Below are positions 30,775 to 35,729 of a stretch of 51,194 nt of DNA, piece after piece. This DNA is from a virus, in IMG/VR virus record IMGVR_UViG_3300039210_000264, positions 1-51,194 of that record, one strand, 5' to 3'. How positions within the stretch are numbered: position 1 is the stretch's first letter; each line of letters begins with the position of its first letter. The translations under genes were made by a program, and so were the position numbers. The notes beneath the pieces were generated by a model. That model was not told the DNA's origin. It did no database searches and saw nothing but the letters and a program-made list of their open reading frames with translations.

Positions 30775-31083
30775 TTAGTTGTTGTTGCGGTACGGGACGA
30801 TCCACCCGTGGAAGTAAGAACGTAGCACCCGCCCCTCTTCGCAAGTGAGATCTAGCAACGCCTCGCGCTCCTGCCTGGTCATGGCCCTGCACGGCACCCC
30901 CTCGATTACCTCCTCGCCCACGACCAGGATGAAGTACACATCCACCAGGTGTTTGGGTGGCGTGCCTGCCCACTCCGGGGCTACATCGTAGTGCAGCTTC
31001 TCGCTCAGCCGGGTGCCTCCTCTTCCTCGTTTTGTGTCGATTCGTGTCTCTGCTTGTTGCTGGGCACGCTCAATGGGCCTCAC
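30775..31083 (-). CDS. Hypothetical protein
   Basis: 102 residues from a GTG overlapping the previous gene by 14 nt. The middle has HLVDVYFILVVGEEVIEGVP followed by charged helices (MTRQEREALLDLTCEEGRVL). No recognised family. Confidence 0.6.
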   Translation of the reverse strand: MRPIERAQQQAETRIDTKRGRGGTRLSEKLHYDVAPEWAGTPPKHLVDVYFILVVGEEVIEGVPCRAMTRQEREALLDLTCEEGRVLRSYFHGWIVPYRNNN

Positions 31084-31648
31084 CGTCTTCAGCCTCCACG
31101 AGCTTGGGCCGGTACTCCGGCTTCAGTGTGGAGTGAAAGTACGGCCCGATCTGCTCCCCGTGCACGATGCAGTAGCGAGAGAGGCATAACAGCGTGCAGT
31201 CCGGGTACTCGCAGAGCGTGCCGGGTGTGGGCAGACCCTTCGTGCCGGCGGCGACCCTTTTCCAGCCGAGCAGCTTGCGTTGCTCCTGATCGCTCAGTTT
31301 GGCCTGCGTGTACTCGAGCGCCTCACTGCGGTTCTTCTCGGCCACAATGTCGAGCGCATTTACAGCATAGCCGTTGGTTCTCACTCTGGATGCGCGCTGG
31401 TAGTATTCGTCGATCTCTTCCAACTCCAGGTCTGCCAACACTTCGGCCCACGCCCCGATCATGAGCAGCTTGTCCACTCCCACGGGGAGGGGCTGATCAG
31501 TCGCTCGTCTTGCCTTCAAGATTATGTTCGCGAGCATGTCTACCAGCGCGCCACTCCATCTCTTCTCTAACGCTAGCCTCATTTTGCCGAGATCTAGCTG
31601 TTCCGGCTCCTGCTGGCTTGCTCTCTCGATGTCCATTGGTTGTACCAT
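31070..31648 (-). CDS. Hypothetical protein with a C-terminal cysteine cluster
   Basis: About 192 residues if it starts at ATG 31648 (SD-like AGGGGCGG, 8 nt upstream); later in-frame ATGs at 31636 and 31582 are possible. It overlaps the initiator gene by about 150 bp in another frame. The central part (LELEEIDEYYQRASRVRTNG) is helical. Near the end, LCEYPDCTLLCLSRYCIVHG forms a compact Cys cluster. Position next to the initiator suggests a replication role, but no family is recognised. Confidence 0.6.
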   Translation of the reverse strand: MVQPMDIERASQQEPEQLDLGKMRLALEKRWSGALVDMLANIILKARRATDQPLPVGVDKLLMIGAWAEVLADLELEEIDEYYQRASRVRTNGYAVNALDIVAEKNRSEALEYTQAKLSDQEQRKLLGWKRVAAGTKGLPTPGTLCEYPDCTLLCLSRYCIVHGEQIGPYFHSTLKPEYRPKLVEAEDGEAH

Positions 31649-32438
31649 TCTTGCTACCGCCCCTTTCCTTCTGCCACTTGTCTGCTTTGCGCATGGCAGC
31701 GAACCATGTTTGTGTCCAGTCCGTATAGCGATACTTTTGCCGGTTGGACTGCATACTGGCCTTCCATTCCTCGGTGGCCTCTCCAATGTCCAACTCGGGC
31801 AGGTTGCGGGAGGCCCAGGCCTCCATTTCAGCAGTCATCTTGAACATGGGCGGGAAAGACGTAGCTGGAGAAGAATCTGACGATGAAGAGGAGGAGGATG
31901 TGCTTTCAGGGGGTGTGGGTTGCGCGCTTGCGCGCTCCTCCCCCTCTATGGGATCATCCACTCTCTGGGTATTAGATTCTCTTTCTTGTTCTATATCTAC
32001 ATCTATACGCGTTACATTTGGTGTGTAACGCGTTACACCGCGTTTCACCTGTTCATCGGGCGGCTGTAACGCGTTTCTTTTGTTCTGTCTGTGACGTGTA
32101 ACGCGCTCCCTGATAGCCTCCGGCTCATCTGATGGCTTGGGTGCTTGGCGCTTGGCAAAGTTGATAAATGTCGTCTTGTTGCCCTCATCCTCAGACCATG
32201 CTACGATACGAAGCTTCACCAGTCGGGTAAGGGTCTGGCGCAATAGGTCAGTGTCGCCGCGCGACACCTCAACGGCCAGGAGGTCGAGGTCTTCATAGCC
32301 GGTTATAGTGCCCCGCTCGGTCTGCTCAGACGAAAAGCAAATAAGGCGATACCATACGCGATGCTGGGCGTCTGTTAGAGACTCCAACTTGGGGTCGTTG
32401 CGCGACTCGTTGTAAATCTTAAACCAGGGCCAGCTCAT
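31497..32438 (-). CDS. Replication initiator-like protein containing the iteron cluster
   Basis: 313 residues; the ATG overlaps the preceding stop. The N-terminus (MSWPWFKIYNESRNDPKLES...YRLICFSSEQ) is the winged-helix start typical of phage replication initiator/DnaD-like proteins. A low-complexity Ser/Thr/Glu linker follows (residues ~150-185), then a C-terminal helical domain (YRYTDWTQTWFAAMRKADKW, where W-x-x-W is typical of DnaD/helicase-loader ends). Repeats in its DNA at 32007-32105 look like origin iterons. It would open the origin and load the host helicase; no polymerase or helicase gene is seen. Confidence 0.75.
   Translation of the reverse strand: MSWPWFKIYNESRNDPKLESLTDAQHRVWYRLICFSSEQTERGTITGYEDLDLLAVEVSRGDTDLLRQTLTRLVKLRIVAWSEDEGNKTTFINFAKRQAPKPSDEPEAIRERVTRHRQNKRNALQPPDEQVKRGVTRYTPNVTRIDVDIEQERESNTQRVDDPIEGEERASAQPTPPESTSSSSSSSDSSPATSFPPMFKMTAEMEAWASRNLPELDIGEATEEWKASMQSNRQKYRYTDWTQTWFAAMRKADKWQKERGGSKNGTTNGHRESKPAGAGTARSRQNEASVREEMEWRAGRHAREHNLEGKTSD
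31966..32006. other. AT-rich stretch next to the iterons
   Basis: A run including TCTTTCTTGTTCTATATCT is markedly AT-rich compared with the GC-rich surroundings and directly abuts the repeat cluster, as expected of a DNA unwinding element. Part of the same coding gene. Confidence 0.5.
32007..32105. repeat. Iteron-like repeat cluster, candidate replication origin
   Basis: TGTAACGCG or its reverse complement CGCGTTACA occurs at 32008-32016, 32024-32032, 32029-32037, 32065-32073 and 32097-32105, with a one-mismatch copy (CGCGTTTCA) at 32039-32047. The second and third form a 16-bp palindrome GTGTAACGCGTTACAC (32023-32038). The cluster lies inside the initiator gene, just as lambda origin iterons lie inside gene O, and an AT-rich stretch adjoins it. 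Confidence 0.7.
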
Positions 32439-32932
32439 CGCAGCCGCCTTTCGTGGGCTGCTTCATGGCACGCCACGCAAAGTGTTTTAGCGTTGTTGGG
32501 ATCTGTGCGGCCCGGCGGGTAAGTTGCGAACGGGCGGATGTGGTGTACGTGCACCTCGATGCTATTGTCCCCACACCCCACGCACGTATAGTCATCACGC
32601 TCCAAAACCGCCAGCTTGAACTTCTCGTACTCTCGCGTGTGGCGCAGGTCTTGAGTACCTGGATCAGCTACAACCCAGTTCGGTTGCCAGCCGACAATCT
32701 GATAGCCATCGTCCACCTTGTCCCACAACCCCACGTGACACAGCTTCTTGACAAGCTCCTGCGTGTTAGCAACGTCGGCCAGTCTGCATATCTGCTCCAT
32801 AGGGATGAAGCCATCTGTCAGGTACTGGCCGCAATAGGCCAGCCCGCACACAAACAGCCACCCCGCGAGCGGCCCCGCCTTCACCACCTTCGGGTGGTTC
32901 GGGAATTGATCGTCGATCTTGAGCCAGCTCAT
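32435..32932 (-). CDS. Initiator-like wing fused to an HNH nuclease domain
   Basis: 165 residues from ATG 32932, one base after the preceding stop. The first ~100 residues (MSWLKIDDQFPNHPKVVKAG...CGQYLTDGFIP) resemble the N-terminal winged helix of the next gene's initiator. The C-terminus is an HNH nuclease core: VLERDDYTCVGCGDN, then HVHHIRPFA, then NAKTLCVACHEAAHE, with the two CxxC zinc pairs and His-His. This domain pairing is unusual; the N-terminus may recruit the nuclease to the origin. Confidence 0.8.
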   Translation of the reverse strand: MSWLKIDDQFPNHPKVVKAGPLAGWLFVCGLAYCGQYLTDGFIPMEQICRLADVANTQELVKKLCHVGLWDKVDDGYQIVGWQPNWVVADPGTQDLRHTREYEKFKLAVLERDDYTCVGCGDNSIEVHVHHIRPFATYPPGRTDPNNAKTLCVACHEAAHERRLR

Positions 32933-32933
32933 G

Positions 32934-33977
32934 CTATGCCGCCAACCCACTAAGCTCTCTGCCGACCGCGTAGATCTCTGCCCGCATATCCGCTACCGTA
33001 ACCTCCAGGTCCTTTATCTCCGATTCCGCCTCTGCCAGCTCCACCTGAAGCCTCCAGTACCTTGTCGTCATGCGAGCAACGTCAAGCTCTGCCCGCGTCT
33101 TCTCGAGCGCTTCCTGGAGGCCAACGATGATGGCCTCCAGGAAAAGAGGCGGCTGCGGGACGTTGGCCCGTAGATGGGCGTACATACTTGCCCACGGCTC
33201 GGGCAGAAGCGTTCCTGTCACCCAGTTCACCGGCTGCTCGTCTCCGGGATCCCCATCGCTCTCAAGCAATACATCGCCGACTACCTCGCTCCCCGGCTCG
33301 TCGATGACCTCCAACTCCTCGTGGGTAACTTCTATCTTCTGCGGGAGTGGGACGTCGGGGCCGGGCGCGGCGGCAGGCTGATGCCCGGAGGCGATCATGC
33401 GGTTGGGGTACTGGAAATCGTCCGTGCTGGGGATGATCACAACAGATACGCCTTTGTCCCATGGGTACTTTGGCCGGATCTGTTCCGCATATCCGCAGTC
33501 CATGCACACCTGCCACTCTGCCGGGTGTTTGCTCGGAGCATGCGCGCCGTCCAGGAAGAAGTGAGGGTACTTCTCTTCGATAACAGCGTCCGTTCCCGTC
33601 CACCAGTTCGTATGCTTCCCTACCTGACATGCAGCCTGTATGGACGCGGGTGGTGCAGTCTCCTGCTCACCCCCCTTTTCCTCCGCTCCATCCTCGCCGG
33701 CCTGGGGCAGGCTATGGCTATATCTCGGCGGCTGGGCGTCCTGTGCTATTAGCCCGTCTCGCTTGAGCCGGTAGATTCTGTAACCTATGGACCCTGTGGG
33801 CACACCGGTTGCCCTGCACAGGGCTAACTGCGTTTCCTTCTCGTAGTGATCGGCTATGTACTTGTCCTGCTCTTCCTTGCTCATGCCGGCCCCTGCCTCT
33901 TTCGTTGCTAACACCTTGCTATCTCCTCCGCGTACCACTCTAGGGCCGCGCTTGCTTGAAATCGAATAGGTATCCAT
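32934..33977 (-). CDS. Large protein with a C-terminal coiled coil
   Basis: 347 residues from ATG 33977 (SD GGGAG). The start looks like a small helix-turn-helix region (ALCRATGVPTGSIGYRIYRL), then a central domain with a Cys pair (WQVCMDCGYAEQI). The last ~90 residues are a coiled coil (RLQVELAEAESEIKDLEVTV). Neither role nor family is recognised; the order suggests replication or partition. Confidence 0.65.
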   Translation of the reverse strand: MDTYSISSKRGPRVVRGGDSKVLATKEAGAGMSKEEQDKYIADHYEKETQLALCRATGVPTGSIGYRIYRLKRDGLIAQDAQPPRYSHSLPQAGEDGAEEKGGEQETAPPASIQAACQVGKHTNWWTGTDAVIEEKYPHFFLDGAHAPSKHPAEWQVCMDCGYAEQIRPKYPWDKGVSVVIIPSTDDFQYPNRMIASGHQPAAAPGPDVPLPQKIEVTHEELEVIDEPGSEVVGDVLLESDGDPGDEQPVNWVTGTLLPEPWASMYAHLRANVPQPPLFLEAIIVGLQEALEKTRAELDVARMTTRYWRLQVELAEAESEIKDLEVTVADMRAEIYAVGRELSGLAA

Positions 33978-34158: not shown

Positions 34159-35445
34159 TTAGAGGTTGCCCTTCTCGGCTCGGCTAGCCAGTGTGTCCTC
34201 GTCGAGTGCTGCCAGCGCCACTGTGGCCGCGTTCTGTACGCCCCAGGCTTCCTCCGCGCGCCGCAATATCTCCACACGATCCGAATACACCCTCGACGTC
34301 GTGCCTACGCTCTTGCCGTCGTATTCCACTTCTAAGACCTGGGGCATCGCCAGCCGCGCGCAATAGACCATCAGATCGTTTTCGTACTCACAGGCCAGGA
34401 TGAGCGCGTCCATTTCATCGTGCATGGGCAGTCCCCAGGCCCGGCGCACGTCGGCCATGATATAGCCCTTATTGAGCGCGAGCGCCATCATGCGCACGTG
34501 CTCCATGTCGGCCAGTGGCATGGATACGCCGGCGATCACGTCTTGATCTCCATACACGCGCACAGCCTCGACCAACGCCGCCTGTACAACCTTCACGCGC
34601 TTGGTGCGCGCTTTGCCCTCGGCCATCCCCGCGCGCTTCTCATCCTTGCGCTTGGCCTCCAATTCCTCAACCGGGATGCCTGCCCGCGCTGCCTCCATTT
34701 CGGCATTCTGCTGGGCATACTTCTTCGCATCTTCTTGGTGCTGACGGTACCACTTCTGAACAGACTGGATGCCCTGTATGTCGGTCTCTGCGACGCGCAC
34801 CGACGACTCTTTTCCGACCCATTGTGCCGCTTGGTCGGCTTGCCAGTCGGCGATCGGCGTTTCCTTACCGAAGTCGTCAATCGGCGGCTCCTCGACTCTC
34901 AGGAGCGCCATGCCGTGCCCCGCGGACAGCCGCCCGTCGGCGATGTAGTCGAGCACCTTATCGGGCAGTCTCAACAGCCTCAGCAGGTTCGCCAGCGCCG
35001 GCTGCGACATCCCCAGCTTCGAAGCCAGCGTAGCCTGTGTCAGCTCCGGGTGCGCCTCCCTCAATCGCTTGCACGTCACGGCTAGGGCGACCGGGTTGAT
35101 GTCCTTGCGCTGGATGTTGCTCACCAACCTCTGTATCTCACCCTGCAACTGGCCGGGGGCCTCCACGACCACACAAGGCACGCTCCCCAGCCCCGCCAGC
35201 AGCGCCGCCGCCGCTCGCCTATGCCCTGAGTTGATGTATGTGTGGCCGTGCTTCCTGTAGACCCTCAGAGGCTCCAGGATGCCCACCTGCCGGATGCTCT
35301 CCACCAACCCCGCGAGGTCGGCGTCGCTCTCCGGCGTGATCTCCCCGTGCTCGTTATTCGGGTCGTTCTTCAACACGGCAGGGTCAATCCACGCCACCGC
35401 CATGCCCCCCTCAGTCGCCGCCGGGTGTTCTAAAGTGTTTGTCAT
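34159..35445 (-). CDS. ParB-like protein
   Basis: 428 residues from ATG 35445 (SD AGAGGAAG), overlapping the previous stop as ATGA. N-terminal ParB/Spo0J nuclease-like domain: VAWIDPAVLKNDPNNEHGEI, GLVESIRQVGILEPLRVYRK, GHRR (74-77, corresponding to the GERR box that binds CTP in chromosomal ParB), NIQR (110-113). A helix-turn-helix follows (LTQATLASKLGMSQPALANL, 135-154). The C-terminal ~230 residues have no recognised domain and lack an obvious ParB dimerisation end. There is no ParA gene in the window. It may bind the parS-like palindromes described below. Confidence 0.85.
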   Translation of the reverse strand: MTNTLEHPAATEGGMAVAWIDPAVLKNDPNNEHGEITPESDADLAGLVESIRQVGILEPLRVYRKHGHTYINSGHRRAAAALLAGLGSVPCVVVEAPGQLQGEIQRLVSNIQRKDINPVALAVTCKRLREAHPELTQATLASKLGMSQPALANLLRLLRLPDKVLDYIADGRLSAGHGMALLRVEEPPIDDFGKETPIADWQADQAAQWVGKESSVRVAETDIQGIQSVQKWYRQHQEDAKKYAQQNAEMEAARAGIPVEELEAKRKDEKRAGMAEGKARTKRVKVVQAALVEAVRVYGDQDVIAGVSMPLADMEHVRMMALALNKGYIMADVRRAWGLPMHDEMDALILACEYENDLMVYCARLAMPQVLEVEYDGKSVGTTSRVYSDRVEILRRAEEAWGVQNAATVALAALDEDTLASRAEKGNL

Positions 35446-35729
35446 TTTTCTTCCTCTCGTCGAGCAGCGCCGTCTGTCTCCACCGTGAATGCAGCGTCTG
35501 TGATCAGCGGTTGCAGATATCCGCTGGGGTTCTTTGGTTTTGGGGGCGCGCTCAGTTCCTCTGAATAATGACTGCCCCGGCGGATGAGCTTCATCTCGGC
35601 CCCCGGCGCGGCATATTTCAGCATGCACGCCCTACATAAGCGCGCTCCCGTGCCGGGCACCGTCAGCTCCCTCTCTGTGTCGCCCAACACACGCTGGCAC
35701 AGATCGCATCTCTTCGGTAGTGGTAGCAT
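35442..35729 (-). CDS. Zinc-ribbon protein, first gene of the ParB operon
   Basis: 95 residues with SD GGAGG. CDLCQRVLGDTER and LCRACMLKYAAP give a C-x2-C ... C-x2-C ribbon. The stop overlaps the parB-like start. A parS-like site lies directly in front of its SD, so the operon may be autoregulated by the ParB-like protein. Confidence 0.75.
   Translation of the reverse strand: MLPLPKRCDLCQRVLGDTERELTVPGTGARLCRACMLKYAAPGAEMKLIRRGSHYSEELSAPPKPKNPSGYLQPLITDAAFTVETDGAARREEEK

Follow-up and report, generated by a model that had tools for sequence, protein, structure and literature searches.

The DNA analysed here, called the window below, is an IMG/VR virus record of 51,194 bp. Matches to Pfam and PHROG families indicate genes for an integrase, RecT, a ParB-like protein, a methyltransferase and a terminase, a gene set from which we conclude that the window is a temperate phage. 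Its minus strand encodes a replication initiator-like protein, whose gene and internal repeats (iterons) are arranged as follows:

31497-32438, minus strand: gene for a replication initiator-like protein of 313 aa, with an N-terminal helical domain, a basic helix, a disordered linker and C-terminal helices (PHROG, AlphaFold2)
32067-32123, minus strand: proposed recognition helix EAIRERVTRHRQNKRNALQ, codons 106-124, class V with H, predicted word GTAACG (motif and AlphaFold2)
31851-32066, minus strand: low-confidence linker, codons 125-196, probably disordered, holding most of the putative origin DNA (AlphaFold2)
31966-32007, no strand assigned: AT-rich stretch with purine-rich hexamers in the gene strand (ATAGAT GTAGAT ATAGAA ...), a candidate unwinding element (sequence, AT content)
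32008-32016, minus strand: iteron TGTAACGCG, exact match
32024-32032, plus strand: iteron TGTAACGCG, exact match, one half of the palindrome
32029-32037, minus strand: iteron TGTAACGCG, exact match, the other half of the palindrome
32065-32073, plus strand: iteron TGTAACGCG, exact match
32097-32105, plus strand: iteron TGTAACGCG, exact match, overlapping codons of the basic helix
32039-32047, minus strand: near-copy TGAAACGCG with one mismatch, 10 bp from the next same-strand copy
32023-32038, no strand assigned: 16-bp palindrome GTGTAACGCGTTACAC, two iterons face to face, occurring once

The gene that comes next after the initiator gene (31070-31786) has no family match. Directly upstream, 32435-32950 (minus strand) codes for a small protein made of an initiator-like N-domain (phrog_2447, 8.7e-21) and an HNH nuclease (PF01844), reminiscent in its layout of Odn, the origin-directed nuclease of phage ICP1 (PMC8263062). 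About 2 kb from the iteron cluster, 34159-35628 (minus strand) encodes the ParB-like protein (HTH_ParB PF17762, 1.7e-16, plus ParB_N), in the same phage as the integrase.

A sequence scan confirmed the elements described in the first-pass annotation, namely five copies and one near copy of the repeat, a 16-bp palindrome and an AT-rich neighbour inside an initiator-like gene. Beyond the five copies in 32008-32105, no exact TGTAACGCG is found in the 51,194 bp, and no 110-bp stretch elsewhere in the window repeats a 9-mer as often as these five times; in 30 first-order Markov resamples the top 9-mer count per 110 bp reached only 2-3. The copies within the coding sequence of 31497-32438 (minus strand) span four strand/frame classes and are therefore not a repeated peptide. 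When synonymous codons were shuffled 20,000 times, with the protein and its codon usage kept fixed, five GTAACG per 110 bp occurred in a single shuffle (P=0.00005) and the 9-mer count never exceeded three. The several strand/frame classes and the excess over synonymous shuffles thus indicate that selection acts on the DNA and that the repeats are a DNA signal. An origin of the repeats wholly in conserved protein sequence, which the first-pass annotation had raised against its own proposal, is contradicted by both results.

The copies are also phased. Read in gene orientation, same-strand spacings in the window are 32 and 41 bp for the minus copies and 21 bp for the plus copies, the latter preceded by near copies at distances of 31 and 10 bp, all of these same-strand iteron spacings being near whole helical turns. 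The same regularity is seen in relatives from families fetched without use of the word, where 237 neighbouring same-strand spacings comprise 117 of 10 bp and 89 of 11 bp, with further peaks at 20-22 bp (16) and 31-33 bp (9); only 18 of the 237 are divisible by three. As 10-11 bp is no multiple of a codon, these spacings represent one helical turn and not tandem codons. In the E. coli form L821, copies start at positions 128, 138, 148, 180 and 409, 419, 430, 440, 450 of the gene. A second iteron array encoded in an insertion inside the N-terminal domain (approximately nt 128-190 in E. coli) is present in L625, L672 and L819-L821.

These data bear on whether the repeats arose as a side effect of peptide repetition or codon bias within a low-complexity linker. 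The peptides VT, CNA, RY and ALQ do recur in the linkers, and many in-frame tandem matches to the word in databases, including many GTAACGC triples in viral contigs, are plain protein repeats. However, one word is read in several ways within one gene, the 10/11 bp spacing does not fit codon multiples and the cluster is lost in synonymous shuffles; for the phased arrays, spacing and frame already contradict a by-product, which we regard as hardly credible.

Concerning base composition, AT content is 65-68% at about 31961-32020 versus about 43% in the surrounding region. In relatives, the 48 nt after the last iteron are 55% AT and 41% A, versus 45% and 26% elsewhere in the gene, and often contain GATACA- or GATAAA-like hexamers. 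This A-rich flank lies where an unwinding element would be expected. GC skew, which the first-pass annotation had named as a check, shows no clear switch at 32 kb of the window.

The label DnaD/initiator-like given to the gene held for its second half: the protein is initiator-like, and DnaD-like only by a weak PHROG match (phrog_10469, DnaD-like helicase loader, 2.8e-6), next to a match to phrog_1882 (8.1e-6). A Pfam search gave no match, including to the lambda O family and the DnaD domain, and a protein search for relatives in INPHARED and IMG/VR found none. The protein aligns with an initiator family that we call A2, and its helix arginines R112 and R117 are invariant. AlphaFold2 places the motif-bearing helix at residues 106-124 (block pLDDT 80-94), followed by a low-confidence linker at approximately 125-196, and models in the relative L546 a winged-helix-like domain with a helix at 98-124. 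In a viral library, the modelled A2 domain has its structural neighbours among phage replisome organizers and primosomal proteins; no near relative of the modelled initiator domain was found in the PDB. The reader of the word is most probably the basic helix that follows the winged-helix-like domain, rather than the DnaD-like domain itself.

The repeat sequence had been described from this phage, and the description of the repeats stands, but the word is not peculiar to it. Scanning viral contigs for TGTAACGCGTTACA gave 119 stretches, and at approximately 34 sites three or more additional core words lie within 200 bp; most of these 34 sites that have a long reading frame lie mid-gene in initiator-like genes whose N-terminal domains differ, with codons for a basic stretch (e.g. 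RERVRKYREKK) preceding the word. The arrays sit deep in the coding sequence, at about 0.42 of the gene. Many unrelated phages share GTAACGC in their initiator genes, usually with basic-helix codons beside it, and the bacteria whose phages and prophages carry the word are very diverse. The helix consensus from 44 non-redundant examples is [RK]-E-Q-[TN]-[RK]-x-R-[VQ]-x-[RK]-[YHF]-[RK]; arginine occupies position 2 in all 44 aligned motifs, this residue and the other basic anchors being built into the search pattern.

The association also appears when the DNA is ignored. A scan for the peptide ERVRKYRE returned 11 proteins, seven initiator-like and four unrelated: in six of the seven, two of which are near-identical, the following 150 nt contain 2-8 GTAACG, as opposed to 0-1 in the four unrelated ones. 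Among GTAACGC triples in viral contigs, 15 of 141 lie near a helix, versus none of 124 for a reversed-word control, and those in bacterial genomes are mostly background (1 of 143). Helix and word are both absent from sampled genes with DUF1376, Lin1244_N and, for the most part, PF09681; bacterial genomes yielded almost no additional helix carriers from the DUF1376, Lin1244_N, PF09681, phrog_1882 and phrog_10469 families, and the experimentally studied Rep genes of TP901-1 and Tuc2009 lack the word. One alignment, A1, was too diverse for the scan. In L376, an uncultured Psychrobacter contig, a DUF1376-like initiator has twelve GTAACG copies before, not after, its helix AERVRKSRQERK.

A single universal phage word was dropped as an explanation, as relatives use other words. 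We collected three families, A2, A3 and A4, by their N-terminal domain only; the seeds carry the word, and the relatives were not selected for it. The over-represented word differs among these genes and tracks helix residues -1, 3 and 6:

Helix V or Q with an aromatic residue: word GTAACG, class consensus GTAACGC
Helix A, G or S with W: word CGAACG, class consensus CGAACGCAA
Helix K with W: word GGAACG, class consensus CGGAACGCA
Helix K with S or Q: word GTCACG
Helix D before K: word GGACGT, class consensus CGGACGTCC
Helix M: word GCACGT, class consensus GCACGTGC
Helix K with Y: word GGGACA

Most of these words fit NNNACG with a variable first triplet. The predicted word is the commonest of the seven in 112 of 163 classified genes, another word in 7, and no word occurs twice in 44, so that 112 of 119 informative genes (all 42 of those in A3) carry the word of their own helix class. 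Mean copies per gene are 2.2-6.3 for the class word versus mostly 0-0.6 for the others; the V/Q class has means of 5.0 (A2), 3.4 (A3) and 2.5 (A4), the class of K with S/Q 2.8 (A2) and 3.4 (A3), and the K/Y pairing occurs in A2 and A4. In within-family permutations that covered all 2080 hexamers, P was 0.002 for four classes and 0.016 and 0.022 for two. As the same pairing is seen again in families whose N-domains are little related, it is not explained by shared ancestry within one family; a sign test within single families had too few supported independent pairs on the N-domain trees. Serine at position 6 alone as the determinant of GTCACG was ruled out, for L376, L626 and L627 have S with GTAACG.

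Because the classes were defined with A2 and A3 already in view, A4 and the named phages scored later serve as a hold-out only in part. Applied to named phages, the fixed rule gave nine clear agreements, one weak one (Harrison, two copies) and three failures. The predicted word is present in 2-5 copies in Gordonia Leonard, Streptococcus PH10 and Listeria A500, three phages already seen before the rule was scored, as well as in ctOK67, ct2G2228, Aeromonas pAEv1818, Pseudomonas P7869, Escherichia Evi and Butyrivibrio Bo-Finn. Cyanophage Cy-LDV1 has no word under the rule, Arthrobacter Jinkies has CGAACG where GCACGT is predicted, and Gordonia Vasanti has GTCACG where GTAACG is predicted; L497/L810 have the helix without the word.

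Two readings that assign the word to another protein can be judged from this covariation. The palindrome and repeats might be parS-like sites for the ParB-like protein of 34159-35628, as a gene with a ParB helix-turn-helix lies 2 kb away and parS sites are palindromes of similar length. However, many unrelated phages have the same word in their initiator genes, where it co-varies with the initiator's own helix, which makes this reading very unlikely. Binding of GTAACGC by a host protein common to many bacteria, and not by the initiator, would agree with the diversity of hosts whose phages and prophages carry the word; it appears highly improbable, given that the word differs in relatives whose N-domain is similar, and there goes with their own helix.

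A GTCACG-type gene is widespread in prophages of E. coli, with matches in 2,162-2,529 of 5,426 complete genomes (approximately 40-47%), the number varying with the stretch that is searched. It is annotated as DnaT-like ssDNA-binding domain-containing protein or phage replisome organizer, and is located after YdaT and, in two of three cases examined, directly before replication protein P. The first-pass annotation had likened the window to the lambda gene O arrangement, and in its anatomy this lambda-O-type reading is supported by the computed selection on the DNA, the helical phasing, the AT-rich neighbour, which in relatives is an A-rich flank, and the position of E. coli relatives directly before the P gene. 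Binding by the helix, melting and origin activity are what we infer from this anatomy.

The same observations could be read as autoregulatory operators, bound by the initiator to control transcription or translation of its own gene, with replication starting elsewhere. Covariation, phasing and location would be equally expected if the helix only regulated its own gene, but the arrays lie deep in the coding sequence and not at promoters, they are followed by an A-rich stretch, and in E. coli the relatives stand where lambda has gene O, ahead of the P gene, so that we hold operators to be an unlikely explanation. Judging from sequence, including the covariation of helix and word, it is quite likely that the cluster is the initiator-binding part of a phage origin located inside the initiator gene and read by the basic helix.

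In the mechanism that we propose, the initiator would consist of an N-terminal winged-helix-like domain followed by a basic alpha-helix, which would sit in the major groove and read the six-base word. With several copies spaced by 10-11 bp, or by two or three turns, the words would all face the same side of the DNA, and initiators could assemble next to one another on it. Melting of the adjoining stretch of A-rich hexamers would follow, and the helicase would be recruited by the C-terminal part or by the products of the next genes. The linker, being probably disordered, would tolerate DNA signals in whichever frame they fall. As parts of one gene, helix and word would be inherited together, drift together and give rise to a natural recognition code.

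More generally, we think it probable that a large superfamily of phage initiators, with varied N-domains and hosts from E. coli to Gordonia, uses a modular basic helix to read a word in its own gene, positions -1, 3 and 6 specifying the first three bases of NNNACG. As such a code would be readable from existing genomes, origins of thousands of unstudied phages and prophages would, with the same probability, be predictable from the protein. To our knowledge, most temperate phage origins are unmapped, and we found no earlier description of the word or of the code in the open literature. If true, a 12-residue motif would predict both the word of the origin and its position for a very large number of phages and prophages, one of which is carried by 40-47% of complete E. 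coli genomes with no annotation beyond DnaT-like, replisome organizer or hypothetical; it would provide a protein-DNA recognition code with many natural variants, explain the odd VT/CNA/RY linker peptides as DNA signals, and predict which phages compete for, or attack, each other's origins.

Some initiator-family proteins (L485:2891-3955, L565, L588, L787/L811) have an HNH-like domain right after the basic helix or, in L565, after the N-domain; L485 retains the helix SKERVRKYREK and one CGTTAC after the HNH part. Such HNH-bearing proteins may cut origins with the matching word.

Among known systems, the lambda origin likewise has iterons and an AT-rich stretch inside the initiator gene, and the gene of the E. 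coli relatives precedes a P gene. However, lambda has four long iterons, as opposed to a six-base word at 10.5-bp phase here, and a Pfam search does not relate the window initiator to lambda O. Phage replisome organizers (DnaD-like, PF09681, DUF1376, Lin1244_N) are also phage initiator-like proteins and structural neighbours of the modelled A2 domain, but the sampled DUF1376, Lin1244_N and most PF09681 members are without helix and word; the Butyrivibrio Bo-Finn protein, annotated as a replisome organizer, has both.

The basic regions of eukaryotic bZIP proteins resemble the phage helix in geometry only: both are basic helices, and the variable positions -1, 3 and 6 of the phage helix, with its fixed positions 2 and 7, correspond in spacing to the base contacts of bZIPs. 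The phage helix differs in having arginine where bZIPs have alanine, and no leucine zipper was noticed; the bZIP basic-region signature N-x(2)-[SAQ](2) does not match the window helix, which has I at -1 and R at position 2. Plasmid-type iterons are direct repeats of about 20 bp placed one unit apart, unlike the six- to nine-base word found here in both orientations at 10-11 bp spacing. Finally, PLE iterons are semi-palindromes of approximately 30 bp in a noncoding origin, and the excerpted text on PLE RepA and ICP1 Odn describes no residue-level recognition code (PMC8263062); they resemble the phages described here in having initiator-origin pairs that co-vary and swap as a module, and in the fusion of a nuclease to an initiator-like domain (PMC8263062).
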